Positions 3,856-34,494 of a stretch of DNA of 64,000 nucleotides are shown in pieces. This DNA is from Luteolibacter yonseiensis (GTDB lineage: Bacteria; Verrucomicrobiota; Verrucomicrobiia; Verrucomicrobiales; Akkermansiaceae), in NCBI RefSeq assembly GCF_016595465.1, contig NZ_JAENIK010000001.1, forward strand, positions 124,001-188,000. Direction: 5' to 3'. The notes below the pieces were generated by a model. That model was not told the DNA's origin, made no database searches, and worked only from the letters and a program-made list of their open reading frames with translations. The position numbers and the translations under genes are program-made. Position 1 is the stretch's first letter. Every line of letters begins with the position of its first letter.

Positions 3856-5454
3856 CTACTTGCCCTTGATGCCGGCTTCGAGTTTTTCGACCACCTGGTC
3901 GATGGAGAACGACGCCGGTTTCTGACGCGGCGGAAAGTCCTTGTAAGTCGAGAGGTAGGTCGAGACCTTGGATACGGCGGGCAGGATCATGTAGGCGTGG
4001 TCCATCAGCCAGCCCTTGTAATATGCGGACGCGTCGATGGAGTATTCATAGGGATCGCTCTTGAGGTCGATGAACTGCAGGGTGCGCAGGATGGTCATGG
4101 GTTCGATCCAGACATCCACGCCGATGGCGCGCTGTTCCATGAAGATATATTTGAAGCGGTCGTCGCGCATCGCCATCAGGTCTCCGTCGTCGCTGAAGTA
4201 GAAAAACTCGTGACGCGCTCCTTTTTCGGTTTTCCCGGTGAGGTAATCGAGCTGGTTGTAGCCATCCAGATGAACCTTGAAGGACTTGTCCCCCAGCTTC
4301 ACGCCCTTTGTCGCGTTCTCGCGCAGGTTCGGATCACCACCCGCGGCGGCGGCGAAGGTGGTCAGCCAGTCTTCCGCCGAGAAAAGTTCGGTGAAATTGG
4401 TCCCCGGCTTGATATGGCCGGGCCAGCGGACGAGCGCGGGAACTCGGAAAGCTCCGTCCCAGTTGGTATCCTTCTCCGAGCGGAACGGTGACGCGCCGCC
4501 ATCCGGCCACATGCTCTTCATGGCGCCGTTGTCCGAGCTGTAGAGGACGATGGTGTTGTCGGCGATTTTCAGGTCGTCGAGCTGCTTGAGCAGTTCTCCC
4601 ACCTGGCCGTCGTGCTCCACCATGCCATCCGCCTGGATGCCCAGTCCGGTCTTGCCCTTCGATGCGGGCTTGAGGTGGGTGAAGACGTGCATGCGCGTCG
4701 CATTGAACCAAACGAAGAACGGCTTGTCGGCCTTGTGGCTGCGATCGATGAAATCCTTCGCGGCGGCTAGGAATTCCTCGTCCACCGTTTCCATCCGCTT
4801 GATGTTGAGCGGACCCGTGTCCTCGATCTTGCCGTCGGCGAAGCTATGGAGCACGCCACGCGGGCCGAATTGTTTCTTGAATTCGGGATCCTTCGGGTAG
4901 TCCTCGTTCTCCGGTTCCTGCTCGGCATTGAGGTGATAGAGGTTGCCGTAGAACTCATCGAAGCCGTGATTGGTCGGCAGGAACTCGTCGCGATCCCCGA
5001 GGTGGTTCTTGCCGAACTGCCCGGTCGCGTAGCCGAGCGGCTTGAGAACCTCGGCAATCGTCGGATCTTCCTTTTGGATACCGACCTTCGCCCCCGGCAT
5101 GCCGACTTTCGTCAGCCCGGTCCGGAAAGGACTCTGGCCGAGGATGAACGCCGCGCGACCGGCGGTGCAGCTCTGCTGGCTGTAGTAGTTCACAAACACG
5201 CCGCCCTCGTTGCCGATGCGGTCGATGTTGGGAGTGGTGAAACCCATCAGCCCGCGCGAATACGCGCTGATGTTCGTCTGGCCGATGTCGTCACCGTAGA
5301 TGACGAGGATGTTCGGCTTCTTGCCCGTCTGGGCGGAAGCCGTGGCGGCGGCCGCGACCAGGGCGGCCACGGTGAAGCGCGCGACGCGCAACGCGTGGGA
5401 GAGTCCGCGCGGGCCGGACGACGCCGGTTGCATGGTGTGTGCTGGTGTTTTCAT
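3856..5454 (-). CDS. arylsulfatase (formylglycine-dependent sulfatase)
   Basis: A 532-residue sulfatase-family protein. The N-terminus carries an exported-protein leader (hydrophobic AALVAAAATASAQ up to about residue 42). The core begins KPNILVIYGDDIGQTN with the metal-binding aspartate pair at 55-56. The catalytic motif is C96-T-A-G-R100, where the cysteine would be converted to formylglycine by a maturase not seen here. Other sulfatase landmarks are GKNHLGD, YSSDNGAMKSMWPDGG and FRVPALVRWPGHIKPG. The substrate cannot be told from the sequence. It lies 34 bases downstream of the secreted HAD phosphatase gene and is probably in one operon with it and the two beta-barrel genes. Confidence 0.93.
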   Translation of the reverse strand: MKTPAHTMQPASSGPRGLSHALRVARFTVAALVAAAATASAQTGKKPNILVIYGDDIGQTNISAYSRGLMGFTTPNIDRIGNEGGVFVNYYSQQSCTAGRAAFILGQSPFRTGLTKVGMPGAKVGIQKEDPTIAEVLKPLGYATGQFGKNHLGDRDEFLPTNHGFDEFYGNLYHLNAEQEPENEDYPKDPEFKKQFGPRGVLHSFADGKIEDTGPLNIKRMETVDEEFLAAAKDFIDRSHKADKPFFVWFNATRMHVFTHLKPASKGKTGLGIQADGMVEHDGQVGELLKQLDDLKIADNTIVLYSSDNGAMKSMWPDGGASPFRSEKDTNWDGAFRVPALVRWPGHIKPGTNFTELFSAEDWLTTFAAAAGGDPNLRENATKGVKLGDKSFKVHLDGYNQLDYLTGKTEKGARHEFFYFSDDGDLMAMRDDRFKYIFMEQRAIGVDVWIEPMTILRTLQFIDLKSDPYEYSIDASAYYKGWLMDHAYMILPAVSKVSTYLSTYKDFPPRQKPASFSIDQVVEKLEAGIKGK

Positions 5455-14924: not shown

Positions 14925-16004
14925 ATGCAACAGCCTATACCTCATCACGCGACCCAGTCCACGACACCCGTCCCTAGGAACAACCTTTGGGCGAGAATGG
15001 GCGGCGGCTCGTTGATGATCGCCGTCATTTTCCACGGCGTCCTGCTGGTTTTCGGCGCGCTCTGGGTTTTCAAGATCATCAACCCGCCCGATGAAAAAGT
15101 CGATTTCATGCCACGCGGCGGCGATGCGGGATCGCGTGCGGCGGAGGTCCAGGTCCAGCAGAAGAAGCGCGCCCAGATCACCCCTGTGAACCAGGTGAAG
15201 CGCGTGTTCGCGCAGAACGCCGAGTCCTCGTATTCCATTCCGGACCCGGGCGATGACTTCGGGCCGATGTCGTCCCTGAGTTCCCTGAGCAGCGGCGGCG
15301 GAGGTGGTGCGGGAGGCCTGGGAGGTCCCGGAGCCGGAAAAGGATTCGGCCAGGGAAAAGGCGGCGCGGGAGGACTTGGGAACGGCCTCCATTCGAACAT
15401 CAAGCTCTTCGGGATGGACCTGAAGGTGGAATCGATCGGGCTGGTGCTCGACGTTTCGGGATCGATGACCCCCAGGCTCAAGCGGGTGGTGGACGAGGCG
15501 AACCGCGTGGCGGAGGGCAGCCCCGTGATCCTGCACGTCGGCTGCGGCCTCGGAGCCGGGAAGAACCAGACGGGAAGGATCGAACCGGTCCGCGGTCCAC
15601 GCGATGACTTCAAGAGATTCTGGTATTTCAACCAGCACCGGGACCGTGAAACGCGGCCGAAAAAGCAGGACGACATGGACATCAGCGGGCCGCCGCCGGT
15701 CCCGGAAGTGTATGATGTCCTCGTGAACCGTCCGCAGACCTACTATCACGACCACGGGCGCGGCGCGATGACCGCCGACGCGCTGCTCTGCAGCGAGCTC
15801 CGCAAGGTCGAGGCCGTCTACTGGTTCGCGGACTTCCAGGACGAGATCCTGCCCGAGACCGCGGAGGAGATCCTGAAGGAGCTGAAGCGGAAAAAACAGA
15901 AACTCTACATCCACGCGGCGGTGAAGGGGAAATACTACGAGGCCGCCCGAGACATGATCGCCGTCCCGAGCGGCGGAGGCGAGGTGAAGCCGATCGGGTT
16001 GTGA
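14925..16004 (+). CDS. membrane-anchored VWA-like protein
   Basis: A 359-residue protein. One transmembrane helix lies at about 29-50 (SLMIAVIFHGVLLVFGALWVFK), followed by a charged spacer, a Gly-rich linker (about 123-155) and a VWA-like domain with a MIDAS motif D176-V-S178-G-S180-M. Downstream the sequence VYWFADFQDEILPETAEEI fits a later VWA strand. The N-terminal anchor plus linker resembles the layout of ExbD/TonB-associated VWA proteins known from Planctomycetes and Verrucomicrobia, but no ExbB/ExbD gene is next to it here. The VWA domain would face the periplasm if the short N-terminus is cytoplasmic. Binding partner unknown. Confidence 0.75.
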   Translation: MQQPIPHHATQSTTPVPRNNLWARMGGGSLMIAVIFHGVLLVFGALWVFKIINPPDEKVDFMPRGGDAGSRAAEVQVQQKKRAQITPVNQVKRVFAQNAESSYSIPDPGDDFGPMSSLSSLSSGGGGGAGGLGGPGAGKGFGQGKGGAGGLGNGLHSNIKLFGMDLKVESIGLVLDVSGSMTPRLKRVVDEANRVAEGSPVILHVGCGLGAGKNQTGRIEPVRGPRDDFKRFWYFNQHRDRETRPKKQDDMDISGPPPVPEVYDVLVNRPQTYYHDHGRGAMTADALLCSELRKVEAVYWFADFQDEILPETAEEILKELKRKKQKLYIHAAVKGKYYEAARDMIAVPSGGGEVKPIGL

Positions 16005-16010
16005 TGGAGG

Positions 16011-16085
16011 GGATCGTGGATCGTGGATCGTGGATCGTGGATCGTGGATTGTGGATCGTGGATTGTGGATTGTGGATTGTGGATC
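16011..16085 (+). repeat. 7-base tandem repeat GGATCGT/GGATTGT, about 10 copies
   Basis: The unit GGATCGT repeats from just after the VWA gene stop. In the second half, GGATTGT variants alternate with the original. There is no coding function. Confidence 0.85.
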
Positions 16086-16092
16086 GGTCTAG

Positions 16093-16135
16093 TCAGAACA
16101 TAGGTAACACATTTGGTTCAGAACATGGGTAACGC
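16093..16135 (+). repeat. two 18-base direct repeats
   Basis: TCAGAACATAGGTAACAC (16093-16110) and TCAGAACATGGGTAACGC (16118-16135) match at 16 of 18 positions and start 25 bases apart. This type of sequence is reminiscent of insertion-sequence ends, but no matching transposase is present, so it may be an IS scar. Confidence 0.45.
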
Positions 16136-16184
16136 TTTTTAGTTCGGAGTTACACTTCCGGTTGTGTTTTGGTGTGACGTCTTA

Positions 16185-16340
16185 GGTTCGGGTTCGGGTT
16201 CGGGTTCGGGTTCGGGTTCGGGTTCGGGTTCGGGGTTCGGGGTTCGGGGTTCGGGGTTCGGGGTTCGGGGTTCGGGGTTCGGGGTTCGGGGTTCGGGGAT
16301 CGGGGATCGGGGTTCGGGGTTCGGGGATCGGGGATCGGGA
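16185..16340 (+). repeat. G-rich tandem repeat (GGGTTC then GGGGTTC/GGGGATC), G-quadruplex-capable
   Basis: About seven GGGTTC hexamers are followed by more than ten GGGGTTC heptamers, the last ones changed to GGGGATC. Runs of three or four G separated by TTC loops meet the usual G-quadruplex pattern many times on the plus strand. The tract ends 190 bases before the transposase start. Confidence 0.85.
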
Positions 16341-16373
16341 ATTCTTCCGCCCCAACGGGGCAAAATGTGATAG

Positions 16374-16392
16374 CCCAGGACATCGTCCTGGG
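16374..16392 (+). repeat. palindrome upstream of the transposase
   Basis: CCCAGGAC (16374-16381) and GTCCTGGG (16385-16392) form a perfect 8-bp stem with an ATC loop. A related CCCAGGGT/ACCCTGGG hairpin lies on the other side of the transposase at 17039-17066. Confidence 0.6.
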
Positions 16393-16412
16393 TTGCATGG
16401 GTAATGATATTG

Positions 16413-16433
16413 AGTCCTGAAGGGACGGCGTCC
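16413..16433 (+). repeat. left 21-base inverted repeat flanking the transposase
   Basis: AGTCCTGAAGGGACGGC followed by GTCC. Its reverse complement recurs at 16997-17017 with a single mismatch, so the two copies bracket the transposase gene at 16532-16984. Their position suggests REP-type targets of this enzyme or the ends of the element. Confidence 0.7.
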
Positions 16434-16531
16434 TGGTGCGACGATTTGCCAACACGCGGATTGAATTCGACAATGTGGGTTTCAAATGAACATCTTGGGC
16501 CGTCGCGACGTATCATTTGAAAAACGCCCCC

Positions 16532-16984
16532 ATGCCCCAATCGCTCGCCCAAATCCTCGTGCATCTGGTTTTCTCCACCAAGAACCGGGAACCATGGCTG
16601 GACGACGGACTACGCGATGAACTCCATGCCTACATCGGGGGAATTGTGGAGAACCAAAAAGGATCGTTGCTGAAGGCGGGATCTGTCGCGGACCACGTCC
16701 ATCTTCTGATCGCCCATCCGCGTACCGTCGCGCCTTCGGAAATGGTGCAGGAAATCAAAACCGGATCGTCCAGATGGTTGAAGACAAAAGGTCCGAAATA
16801 TGTGAATTTCCATTGGCAATCGGGATATGGAATCTTTTCCATCAGTCCGTCACATCGGCCCGCGTTGGAACGGTATATCGAGGATCAGGCGGAGCATCAC
16901 CGGAAAGTGACCTTTCAGGAAGAATACCGGCGGTTGTTGAGCCGGTATGGAATGGGATTCGATGAGAGATATGTTTGGGATTGA
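16532..16984 (+). CDS. IS200-like Y1 transposase, REP-associated (RAYT) type
   Basis: A 150-residue single-domain HUH transposase. I took the ATG at 16532 (MPQSLAQILVHLVFSTKNRE) rather than an in-frame TTG at 16517. The HUH motif is H-V-H in SVADHVHLLIAHPRTV (about residues 53-60), and the conserved WQSGYGIFSISPS segment lies near residue 100. The likely nucleophile tyrosine is in RYIEDQAEHHRKVTFQEEY, the usual C-terminal helix signature. Its length is normal for the family. Single copies of such enzymes flanked by REP palindromes are called RAYTs and are thought to be domesticated. A 21-base inverted repeat pair and several hairpins flank it here. Confidence 0.9.
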   Translation: MPQSLAQILVHLVFSTKNREPWLDDGLRDELHAYIGGIVENQKGSLLKAGSVADHVHLLIAHPRTVAPSEMVQEIKTGSSRWLKTKGPKYVNFHWQSGYGIFSISPSHRPALERYIEDQAEHHRKVTFQEEYRRLLSRYGMGFDERYVWD

Positions 16985-16996
16985 GCGTCGCGCCAT

Positions 16997-17017
16997 GGAT
17001 GCCGTCCCTTCAGGACT
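16997..17017 (-). repeat. right 21-base inverted repeat flanking the transposase
   Basis: Reverse complement of 16413-16433 with one mismatch. It begins 13 bases after the transposase stop codon. Confidence 0.7.
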
Positions 17018-17038
17018 TGTTAGATTCGGGGGCTGATA

Positions 17039-17066
17039 CCCAGGGTTGCGCTTCGCTTACCCTGGG
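17039..17066 (+). repeat. palindrome downstream of the transposase
   Basis: CCCAGGGT (17039-17046) and ACCCTGGG (17059-17066) form a perfect 8-bp stem with a 12-base loop. Similar CCCAGG-type hairpins occur upstream at 16374. Confidence 0.6.
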
Positions 17067-17103
17067 CTGTCGCATGGCGCACCGTTGGTGCTGAAGACTT
17101 TCC

Positions 17104-17213
17104 GATGAACGGATGAACGGATGAACGGATGAACGGATGAACGGATGAACGGATGAATCGATGGACCGATGGACCGATGGACCGATGACCGATGACCGAT
17201 GACCGATGACATT
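17104..17213 (+). repeat. tandem repeat that changes unit: ATGAACGG, ATGGACCG, ATGACCG
   Basis: About seven copies of ATGAACGG are followed by three of ATGGACCG and about four of ATGACCG. The stepwise change of unit suggests successive slippage expansions from one seed. No reading frame is implied. Confidence 0.85.
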
Positions 17214-17276
17214 CGGTTTGCCAACGCGGGTAGGTGCCGGGGAGGGGCGTCGAATGGCACGCGGTTGAGCTGTTCC

Positions 17277-17313
17277 GTTCATCTTCTGTCCCTCCGGGAC
17301 GGAAGATGAACGA
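17277..17313 (+). repeat. long perfect-type palindrome around GTCCCTCCGGGAC
   Basis: Arms at 17277-17293 and 17297-17313 pair over 17 positions with one G-T mismatch around a TCC loop. It marks the right edge of the repeat island and could also act as a terminator for the convergent sulfatase gene, although there is no T-tract. Confidence 0.65.
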
Positions 17314-17409: not shown

Positions 17410-18819
17410 TTAGTTCGCGGAAACCCTCCCCGGTTCCCGCGCTCCGGTGGACTTGGAACCGGTTTGTGAATCTCCGAGGTCGGCGCGCATGGCGGCGGTT
17501 TGCTGCAGGAGTTTTTCCACGATCTCCGGATGCGCGGCGGCCACATCGTTCTGTTCGCCGATGTCTTTTTTCAAATCGAAGAGCATCGGTTTCTCCAGCT
17601 TGCGCTGCTGGTATTTTCCGGGGATGCCGCCGGTTGGCTGCGGGGCGTCCGCCATGGTGCGGTATTGCTGGGGGAGCATCAGCTTCCAATCGCCGTCCGC
17701 CACGGCGAGGAGCTTGTTGTTTTCATAATACCACGCGTAGCGGCGGGGCGGGGGATTGTCGTTCGGTTCGCCGGTGAGGTCGCTGAGGCGGTTGCTGCCA
17801 TCGATCCCCACCTTCGGGAGTTCCGCTCCGATGATCGCGGCGATGGTGGGAAACAGGTCGGTGGTCATCGCCATCTCCGCGCTCTCGGTGCCTGCGGGGA
17901 TCCTGCCAGGCCAGCGCATGATGGTCGGCACGCGGGTGCCGCCTTCCCATGCGGTTCCCTTGCCCTCGCGCAGAGGGGCGGCGTTTCCGGCGTGGTCGCC
18001 GTAGCTCAGCCACGGACCGTTGTCGCTGGTGAAGATGACCAGCGTGTTGTCCGCCACGCCGGCTTTCTCCAGCGCCTCCATCACCTGGCCGACGCCCCAG
18101 TCGATTTCCTGGATCACATCGCCATACAGTCCCGCGCCGGATTTCCCGGCGAATTTGTCGCTCACATACAGCGGCACGTGAGGCATGCTGTTCGCGAGGT
18201 AGAAGAAAAACGGCCTGTCCTTGTTCCGCTCGATGAATGAAACCGCGCGTGCTGCATAACGGGTGGTGAGTTGTTTCTGGTCGTCCGGCGTCACCTCCTC
18301 ATCCACGATCCTGTCGTTCTCATACATCGGCAGCTTCGGATAGGTGCCTTTCTTCGCTTCCGGGTGGTGGGGCCACATGTCGTTCGAGTAGGGCAGGCCG
18401 TACCATTCGTCGAACCCCTGCTTCACGGGCAGAAACTCCGGCGCGTCGCCAAGGTGCCACTTGCCCGCCATGCCGGTGGCGTAGCCCTTCTGCTTCACCA
18501 GTTCCGCCAGCGTCGTCTCCTCCGGGTTCAACCCGATGCGCGCCTTCGGCCCCAGCGCGCCGTGGATGCCGATGCGGCTATTGTAGCACCCCGTCAGCAA
18601 CGACGCGCGCGACGCGGAGCACACCGGGCTGGAAACATGGAAATTCGTGAACCGCCGGCCCTCCTTCGCCAGCCGGTCGATGTTCGGCGTGGCATACTTC
18701 GCACCGAAGCAAGCGACATCCGCGTAAGCCATATCGTCATTGAAGATGACCACCACGTTCGGCGGGCGGGCCATGGCGAAGGAAGCCGCTGCGAGGAAGA
18801 GGATGCCGGCGAGTTTCAT
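17410..18819 (-). CDS. sulfatase family protein (formylglycine-dependent)
   Basis: A 469-residue sulfatase starting at the ATG at 18819, which opens a signal peptide (MKLAGILFLAAASFAMA); the upstream in-frame extension was discarded. Metal-binding aspartates are D28-D29 in VVVIFNDDMAYADV. The catalytic motif is C67-S-A-S-R71, followed by LLTG. Other landmarks are GMAGKWHLGD, NSMPHVPLYVSDKF, FTSDNGPWLSYG and GGTRVPTIMRWPG. The overall order resembles family S1 sulfatases acting on glycans or arylsulfates; the substrate is unknown. It is not related in operon terms to the sulfatase at 3856-5454. The next gene upstream (18863-19600) is on the same strand, 43 bases away. Confidence 0.93.
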   Translation of the reverse strand: MKLAGILFLAAASFAMARPPNVVVIFNDDMAYADVACFGAKYATPNIDRLAKEGRRFTNFHVSSPVCSASRASLLTGCYNSRIGIHGALGPKARIGLNPEETTLAELVKQKGYATGMAGKWHLGDAPEFLPVKQGFDEWYGLPYSNDMWPHHPEAKKGTYPKLPMYENDRIVDEEVTPDDQKQLTTRYAARAVSFIERNKDRPFFFYLANSMPHVPLYVSDKFAGKSGAGLYGDVIQEIDWGVGQVMEALEKAGVADNTLVIFTSDNGPWLSYGDHAGNAAPLREGKGTAWEGGTRVPTIMRWPGRIPAGTESAEMAMTTDLFPTIAAIIGAELPKVGIDGSNRLSDLTGEPNDNPPPRRYAWYYENNKLLAVADGDWKLMLPQQYRTMADAPQPTGGIPGKYQQRKLEKPMLFDLKKDIGEQNDVAAAHPEIVEKLLQQTAAMRADLGDSQTGSKSTGAREPGRVSAN

Positions 18820-18862
18820 TGCCTGACTCTGGGGAAACGATCCCGCCGGAGCAATGATGGAA

Positions 18863-19600
18863 TCATTCCGGCAGGTTGGCAGCCACCCACGCGATTGCCA
18901 CGAAAGGAAGGGCGACCAGCGCGATGACAACGATCCAGCGCCACCATGCGATTTCCCGATGGCTGACGATGAACCCTCCCTCCGCATCCCATGAAGTGAT
19001 CTTCCTTTCCGTCAGGAAGGTGTAGGCGGTGAGGTGGGTGAAGATACTGATGAGGGGAGCTCCCAAAGCCTCACCCCGGAGCCAGACCTTGAAGGTCCGG
19101 ACCAGTGCCTGGCGATAGGCCAGCTTGCTGCCGTCCTGGTTGCGGACGCGGATCAGGAAGAGGGCTTTGAAGGGAGTCGCGCCCCACACGGACAGGAACA
19201 GGGGTTCCACGAAATTATAGATCAACATCAGGATCAGTCCGAAGACCAGGTCATTGATCTGCTCCGCTGCCGGGAAGACGGCTCCGAGGGCCAATCCACC
19301 GATCAGACTGAACAGGAGAATATCCAAAGTCCTCGCCCAGTAGCGGACCCAGGGGCGGATCTGCGGGCCGGTGGGACTGTATCCGCTCCAATCGATTTCA
19401 GAGGACATGCCGGCCGCGGGACTTGCATAGGGTGAGGTTTCGAATCCCGGGATGGTATCCACACGGGACCACTGCGGCATGCCGTCCCGCCAGACGAGGG
19501 AAGACGGGTCGAGCGTGCGGGTTGCGAGAAGTTGTTTGATTTTCTCTCCGCTCACCGGTCCCCCTTGTTTTCCGGATTCTTCGTAAAACCATTCGTCCAT
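18863..19600 (-). CDS. GYF_2 (DUF4339) and RDD domain-containing membrane protein
   Basis: A 245-residue protein from the ATG at 19600. Residues 1-55 form a GYF_2 domain (EWFYEESGKQGGPVSGEKIKQLL ... SSLVWRDGMPQW). Residues about 80-235 form an RDD-like membrane domain with the R-x-x-A-R-x-x-D signature (RPWVRYWARTLDILLFSLIGG) and about four hydrophobic helices, the last WWRWIVVIALVALPFVAIAWV. RDD proteins are small membrane proteins of mostly unknown role, some linked to ion transport. It lies 43 bases upstream of the sulfatase. Confidence 0.85.
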   Translation of the reverse strand: MDEWFYEESGKQGGPVSGEKIKQLLATRTLDPSSLVWRDGMPQWSRVDTIPGFETSPYASPAAGMSSEIDWSGYSPTGPQIRPWVRYWARTLDILLFSLIGGLALGAVFPAAEQINDLVFGLILMLIYNFVEPLFLSVWGATPFKALFLIRVRNQDGSKLAYRQALVRTFKVWLRGEALGAPLISIFTHLTAYTFLTERKITSWDAEGGFIVSHREIAWWRWIVVIALVALPFVAIAWVAANLPE

Positions 19601-33969: not shown

Positions 33970-34167
33970 TCTGGTCCTATCTCCCTCTCCGGTGTGAAAC
34001 GGGTTTCTCCGGATCAAGGGACTTCCTCCGCATGGATCTCCGCAGGGAGGAAGTCGCGGGTTGTGTCGGTTGGTGGATCAGATATATTGAATGCCAGAAG
34101 TCGTTGCCGAAACAATGTAACGATGATCCGCCGGAACATTGTCCGGAGTTCAAGCTTCAGCTTGCTC

Positions 34168-34281
34168 TTTCACAAGACTCCGGTTCTTTCACAAGACTCC
34201 GGTTCTTTCACAAGACTCCGGTTCTTTCACAAGACTCCGGTTCTTTCACAAGACTCCGGTTCTTTCACAAGACTCCGGCTC
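34168..34281 (+). repeat. six tandem copies of a 19-base repeat
   Basis: The unit TTTCACAAGACTCCGGTTC repeats six times without spacers and almost without change; only the last copy differs, ending GGCTC. A further partial TTTCACCAA follows. The near identity implies recent expansion. It lies about 215 bases upstream of the gene at 34495. Confidence 0.9.
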
Positions 34282-34494
34282 TTTCACCAACCACAGCATG
34301 TTCACAGACCTCCTCTCTTTCACGAAGTCCGGATTGCAATTCGGAAGAGCACGCTGGAGCGGTCCGCTGGAGCGCGAACTCCGGACACCACAAAGGAACG
34401 ACACAATCTTACAAATTCCGGAAATCTCTTTTTGCAATCCGTATATGTTCCGTGGTTCCGGACCCGTTGCCACCACCTCGCAAGTTGTCATGCC

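Follow-up and report, generated by a model that had tools for sequence, protein, structure and literature searches.

In the 64-kb stretch of the Luteolibacter yonseiensis genome analysed here (the window: positions 124001-188000 of contig C1 in a 5.73-Mb, 13-contig genome), a lone transposase gene, tnpA (16532-16984, plus strand), is enclosed by two inverted triple-hairpin sequences of the repetitive extragenic palindrome (REP) kind and, immediately outside them, by short tandem arrays. Related pairs of such REP halves are dispersed through the genome as gene-less elements, and there is strong evidence that tandem arrays crowd the ends of these elements far above chance. We consider it reasonably probable that the locus represents the one member of a mobile palindrome family that carries the transposase gene and that the arrays form in place, outside the outer ends of the element.

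The genome-wide association was determined in 2.73 Mb of sequence (48% of the genome), weighted to contigs C10, C5, C6 and C1 and covering 20 kb plus the element loci of contig C11 (1.49 Mb); genes were called by a simple codon-usage model made for the purpose, a non-standard annotator. With arrays defined by a period of 5-20 bases, at least 4 copies and a score of at least 80, 56 arrays were detected, 52 of them intergenic, and 28 of these 52 share their spacer with a REP element. Permutations that redistributed the arrays by repeat-free spacer length within contig, within contig and gene orientation, within 50-kb bins or within 20-kb bins gave expected values of 9.1, 9.8, 10.4 and 11.3, respectively; the observed number was reached in none of 20,000 permutations (P < 5e-5). 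If spacers instead of arrays were counted, 18 were observed versus 7.1-8.5 expected, and within the shared spacers 20 of the 28 arrays were located at a distance of at most 100 bp from the element (12.9 expected, P 0.003). An effect of chance or of array definition was rejected, as the excess was unchanged under several array definitions and also after omission of the window's own locus; regional confounding alone was rejected as well, for the excess persisted under all four schemes of redistribution. In the element-poor contig C4, half of which was read, the single element has one of the only two arrays 73 bp away. The prediction made by the sequence-only reading of this locus, that tandem tracts cluster genome-wide at palindromes of this type, was thus borne out. 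Independently of this comparison, contigs C5 (right end) and C1 (left end) were found to share 86 bases that fall within a 10-base tandem array, and two arrays on C10 have a run of N between them (C10:4546-4605); arrays therefore disrupt the assembly, and the count given here is probably too low.

According to several sequence comparisons, the arrays appear to grow locally, next to the element ends. The repeat unit differs on the two sides of the elements at C1:59441, C10:4194, C10:13581, C10:27030 and C5:90743 as well as of the window element, which argues that the elements did not split existing arrays. The element on contig C4 is followed by six copies of GCCGGATGCGG and seven of GCCGGATGATC (approximately 13 units), whereas the paralogous element on C11, with the same downstream sequence, is followed by one GCCGGATGATC: the C4 array would have grown in place from the flank or, less simply, have shrunk on C11. 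The base skew of the arrays parallels that of the surrounding sequence (rho 0.71; same sign in 44 of 52), as would be expected if they arose locally. The unit of a 45-base array at C5:79197 begins in the terminal GGTGCTG of the element, and near C10:26620 a 16-base duplication spans an element end.

A similar arrangement was recovered in relatives of the transposase. Within 80 loci around such relatives, 10 arrays were present (here defined by a period of 5-60 bases and at least 3 copies), and seven of these lie at most 200 bp from a REP half versus 9% of the sequence (binomial 4e-6), a comparison in which the loci were chosen around REPs and the background comprises all sequence, not spacers alone. 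One of the seven, at locus L040, consists partly of REP sequence itself, and the REP half next to the L099 array was contributed by the covariance search; with one array removed, six of nine remain near REP halves (P 4e-5). The clearest case is locus L038, where 28 copies of CCGGCAT are enclosed by the right half and the REP half that comes after it. These loci provide support, short of independent proof. Most of them derive from short-read metagenome-assembled genomes (MAGs), in which arrays collapse or end contigs; in two Bacteroidota plasmid relatives a tandem array was absent within 4 kb of the transposase. As a separate observation, the Roseiflexaceae relatives L052, L053 and L054 carry a 12-base array (CAATTTCGGTAT, four copies) just upstream of tnpA, at the position occupied by the left REP half in other genomes.

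How the element ends would act can be outlined as follows: a short sequence outside the outer end may slip or be re-copied repeatedly and thereby be converted into a tandem array. The trigger would be either a transposase nick at the foot of the hairpin or an arrest of synthesis at the large hairpin, after which the new strand re-anneals one unit back. The element ends are the most likely cause of array expansion, as we infer from the association and the growth in place. The proposal of the sequence-only reading is thereby supported in part; its causal component, transposase-linked nicking or repair slippage, is retained as an interpretation. More specifically, the transposase, a HUH enzyme of subclass-1.2 type, may actively create minisatellites, if nicking at the palindrome ends repeatedly re-primes synthesis over the few bases next to them and each element seeds its own unique array; this version is put forward tentatively. 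Stalled synthesis at the hairpin is considered only slightly less probable as a driver of the slippage.

Structure alone might also suffice, the REP hairpin or cruciform stalling replication or repair synthesis and inducing slippage nearby, with the transposase having done nothing but spread the elements. Indeed, the fold predicted for a complete element in single-stranded form is very stable (-73.9 kcal/mol, z -9.5), and the arrays sit outside the outermost hairpin. However, 283 ordinary intergenic hairpins (stem of at least 8) showed no excess, with 5 arrays observed versus 5.04 expected; the arrays amount to 0.011 per ordinary hairpin compared with 0.45 per REP element, and only one of 80 stronger non-REP hairpins (stem score of at least 12) had an array within 100 bp. 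A general hairpin effect was accordingly rejected as far as ordinary hairpins are concerned. This result leans towards nicking and is not decisive, because the control hairpins are all far shorter than the whole element; on balance, an action of structure alone is regarded as somewhat unlikely.

A number of findings weigh against array formation at element ends. Almost half of the intergenic arrays (24 of 52) have no detectable REP element in their spacer, and a search for degenerate REP remnants near these arrays revealed none above background. Conversely, 25 of the 44 elements lack an array in the adjoining 150 bp, and most transposase loci of the relatives are without one. At single halves the preference for the outer side (six arrays versus two on the inner side) is not significant, and the paralog argument for growth in place rests mainly on one pair. 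Finally, contigs C10, C5, C6 and C1 are rich in REPs as well as in arrays, both being scarce elsewhere, so that a shared permissive environment contributes.

Whether such an environment could account for the association by itself, long and poorly constrained spacers collecting mobile palindromes and arrays independently of each other, has been weighed against the spatial data. The four contigs have a coding density of 0.75-0.84 compared with 0.85-0.92 in the other large contigs, and their accessory genes look partly phage-derived (judged by eye), both in agreement with shared tolerance. The excess nevertheless persists in 20-kb bins under redistribution proportional to repeat-free spacer length, and the arrays are nearer to the element than random placement in their own spacer would put them; this explanation is largely contradicted and unlikely. 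Preferential insertion of REP elements into or beside pre-existing arrays would likewise produce close adjacency, yet insertion into an array should yield equal units on both sides, a pattern shown by none of the two-sided cases seen; this reading is very improbable. That the arrays travel as cargo with the mobile element, like a miniature inverted-repeat transposable element (MITE) with an internal minisatellite, is hardly credible: some flank sequence is common to the elements on C4, C11 and C5, but the units vary between elements and lie outside the conserved ends, and the GGTTCGG and GATGAACG arrays of the window were found nowhere else in the sequence read. Array formation at the element ends is preferred.

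The transposase of the window is a protein of 150 amino acids encoded by an intact open reading frame; its Y1_Tnp domain was recognized by Pfam PF01797 (E 7.8e-25), the protein passes the NCBIfam IS200/IS605 model NF033573 (67.1 bits, cut-off 55), and alignment with solved IS200/IS605-family transposases showed H55-V-H57 and Y115 to be intact. The motif YIEDQAEHH fits the pattern Y---Q--HH, described as characteristic of TnpA_Y1 subclass 1.2 (Quentin et al. 2018, PMC6006769); Y, Q and HH are common to all 80 transposase relatives fetched. This is the sole full tnpA copy in the genome, consistent with the low copy number of that subclass. By motif, size and copy number, TnpA is classified as a class-1 (IS200-like) Y1 enzyme of subclass-1.2 type. 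Identity as a class-2 REP-associated tyrosine transposase (RAYT, TnpA_REP) was rejected, owing to Y---Q in place of Y---NP and to the score of 17.4 bits with the REP-associated tyrosine transposase model NF047646 (cut-off 80). Of the sequence-only reading, a solitary HUH transposase of RAYT type, the solitary HUH transposase and its inverted palindromes stand, whereas the RAYT protein class does not. The closest named relatives belong to the Verrucomicrobiaceae and other Verrucomicrobiota; those with approximately 70-85% identity come from MAGs and genomes that bear the labels Verrucomicrobiota, Planctomycetota and Chloroflexota, and 40 of 59 related genomes contained homologues at E <= 1e-20.

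Each REP half is composed of three hairpins: TCC TGAAG GGA (inner), CCCAGG...CCTGGG (middle) and GCACC AAA GGTGC (outer). When 26 halves, taken from this genome and eight others, were aligned, 99.8% of the paired cells were kept, and 7 of 17 pairs had changed on both sides in a compensatory manner across phyla, a result equalled by none of 500 shuffles. The gene-less element comprises two halves approximately 20 bases apart (about 210 bp in total); 76 halves, corresponding to 44 elements, were located in the 2.73 Mb, and a covariance model detected 78 halves genome-wide. The halves form an inverted pair in 26 of the 44 elements and only one element lies inside a called gene: the family consists of inverted, intergenic, many-copy REP halves and in this arrangement resembles REP doublets forming hairpins (REPINs) or bacterial interspersed mosaic elements (BIMEs). 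GANAG is found at the foot of the middle hairpin, and a GT[AG]G foot is missing. One element, C1:59441-60086, is a tandem triplicate. IS200/IS605 insertion sequences have a single subterminal hairpin at either end, and the two ends are arranged in direct orientation; with three hairpins per end in inverted orientation, the present halves do not conform to such ends.

The layout of half, tnpA and half also occurs around the transposase relatives. Inverted triple-hairpin flanks together with a dispersed REPIN-like family are present in Verrucomicrobiota and, in addition, in records that bear the labels Planctomycetota, Chloroflexota and Acidobacteriota; matches to the half were obtained in each of the 12 relative genomes searched (8 to 75 each among the limited number of candidates scored). 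On the Persicobacter plasmid CP012861 (Bacteroidota; locus L289, approximately 3880-4560), a 41%-identical transposase with Y---Q--HH was observed, whose flanks, as judged by eye, form inverted three-hairpin structures of the same layout and different sequence. This plasmid suggests that transposases of the group generally have such a layout.

At the locus itself, the spacer between the gene ending at 16004 and a minus-strand sulfatase gene (17410-18987) contains tnpA with tandem tracts on both sides. From left to right, Tandem Repeats Finder reported a 7-base array of 10.9 copies of GGATCGT/GGATTGT (16011-16086), followed on the plus strand by two copies of TCAGAACATRGGTAAC located 25 bases apart (16093-16139) and by a 23-copy array that begins with the 6-base unit GGTTCG and continues with the 7-base units GGTTCGG/GGATCGG (GGTTCGG/GGTTCGGG; 16185-16339). 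The latter array stops 3 bases short of the left REP half (16343-16432, minus strand; profile match E 2.4e-13 and covariance-model match). Downstream of tnpA, the right half (16998-17097, plus strand; profile match E 7.4e-23) is followed after 6 bases by an 8-base array, 6.8 copies of GATGAACG (17104-17157), continued by CGATGGACC / CGATGACC with 7-base CGATGAC units (17159-17208), so that the unit length shifts stepwise from 8 to 7 bases. A separate near-perfect palindrome with 17-base arms and a 3-base loop (17276-17312) is positioned between this array and the 3' end of the sulfatase gene. The three tandem tracts, including the stepwise unit change of the last, had been recognized from the sequence, as had the CCCAGG hairpins, which correspond to the middle hairpin of each half. 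The 21-base inverted repeat pair with one mismatch described at the same time is real (16413-16433 and 16997-17017) and does flank the gene in inverted orientation; it represents only the innermost part, the inner hairpin, of the much longer triple-hairpin halves. An Rfam search of the window gave zero matches.

Only four arrays with at least 4 copies and a score of at least 80 are present in the window, and three of them flank the transposase; the fourth, at 34166-34287, has a 19-base unit (TCTTTCACAAGACTCCGGT, 6.4 copies), and its flanks match a different dispersed family (C9:295.8k, C5:16-25k, C10:20.3k, C6:36.6k and C12:18.6k). The TCAGAACATRGGTAAC motif resembles an insertion-sequence end, and a related 50-base stretch (96%) lies approximately 39 kb away at C1:101578-101627. 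Elsewhere in the genome, the strand asymmetry of C5:1-95000 (L120-L124) is extreme, with a GC skew of about +0.11 to +0.38 per 10 kb that falls to baseline near 95-100 kb, whereas the skew of most other stretches read stays within approximately 0.1. It affects the spacers and, for the most part, the third codon positions as well, whichever strand the genes lie on, overall GC being unchanged.

The source of bacterial tandem arrays with units of 6-12 bases is poorly explained, and the strong, element-specific link offers a concrete and testable origin; moreover, a REPIN-like system is added for a group of IS200-like transposases in which, according to its description, terminal structures are generally lacking. 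An earlier report of short arrays with diverse units at REP ends was not found in the open-access literature, an absence that proves nothing by itself. In comparison with known systems, the protein shares with TnpA_Y1 subclass 1.2 (PMC6006769) the class-1 IS200-like core, the short length, the low copy number and Y---Q--HH, and differs in its inverted triple-hairpin flanks and the dispersed REPIN-like family. With the RAYT/TnpA_REP systems and their REPINs (PMC3116915, PMC6006769), it has in common the single-copy transposase, the inverted palindrome flanks and the many intergenic two-palindrome derivatives; in contrast to these, Y---NP is absent, the REP-associated model failed, the GT[AG]G foot is replaced by GANAG, and each half has three hairpins instead of one. 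Tandem amplification linked to REPINs is known from the clusters of Pseudomonas fluorescens SBW25 (PMC3116915), to which the triplicate on C1 may be compared; the repeated unit there consists of the REPIN plus flanks, whereas here it is mostly 5-20 bases of unrelated flank. The MITE with a minisatellite in Porphyromonas gingivalis (PMC4596501) is likewise a bacterial miniature element combined with a minisatellite which reportedly lies inside the element, in contrast to the present arrays, which lie outside and differ per copy. The heptamers of Xanthomonas and Nostoc, finally, are intergenic, G-rich 7-base arrays of similar length; they are reported to be generally unassociated with mobile elements and to have one dominant unit (PMC4692102), whereas the units described here are diverse and tied to REP ends.
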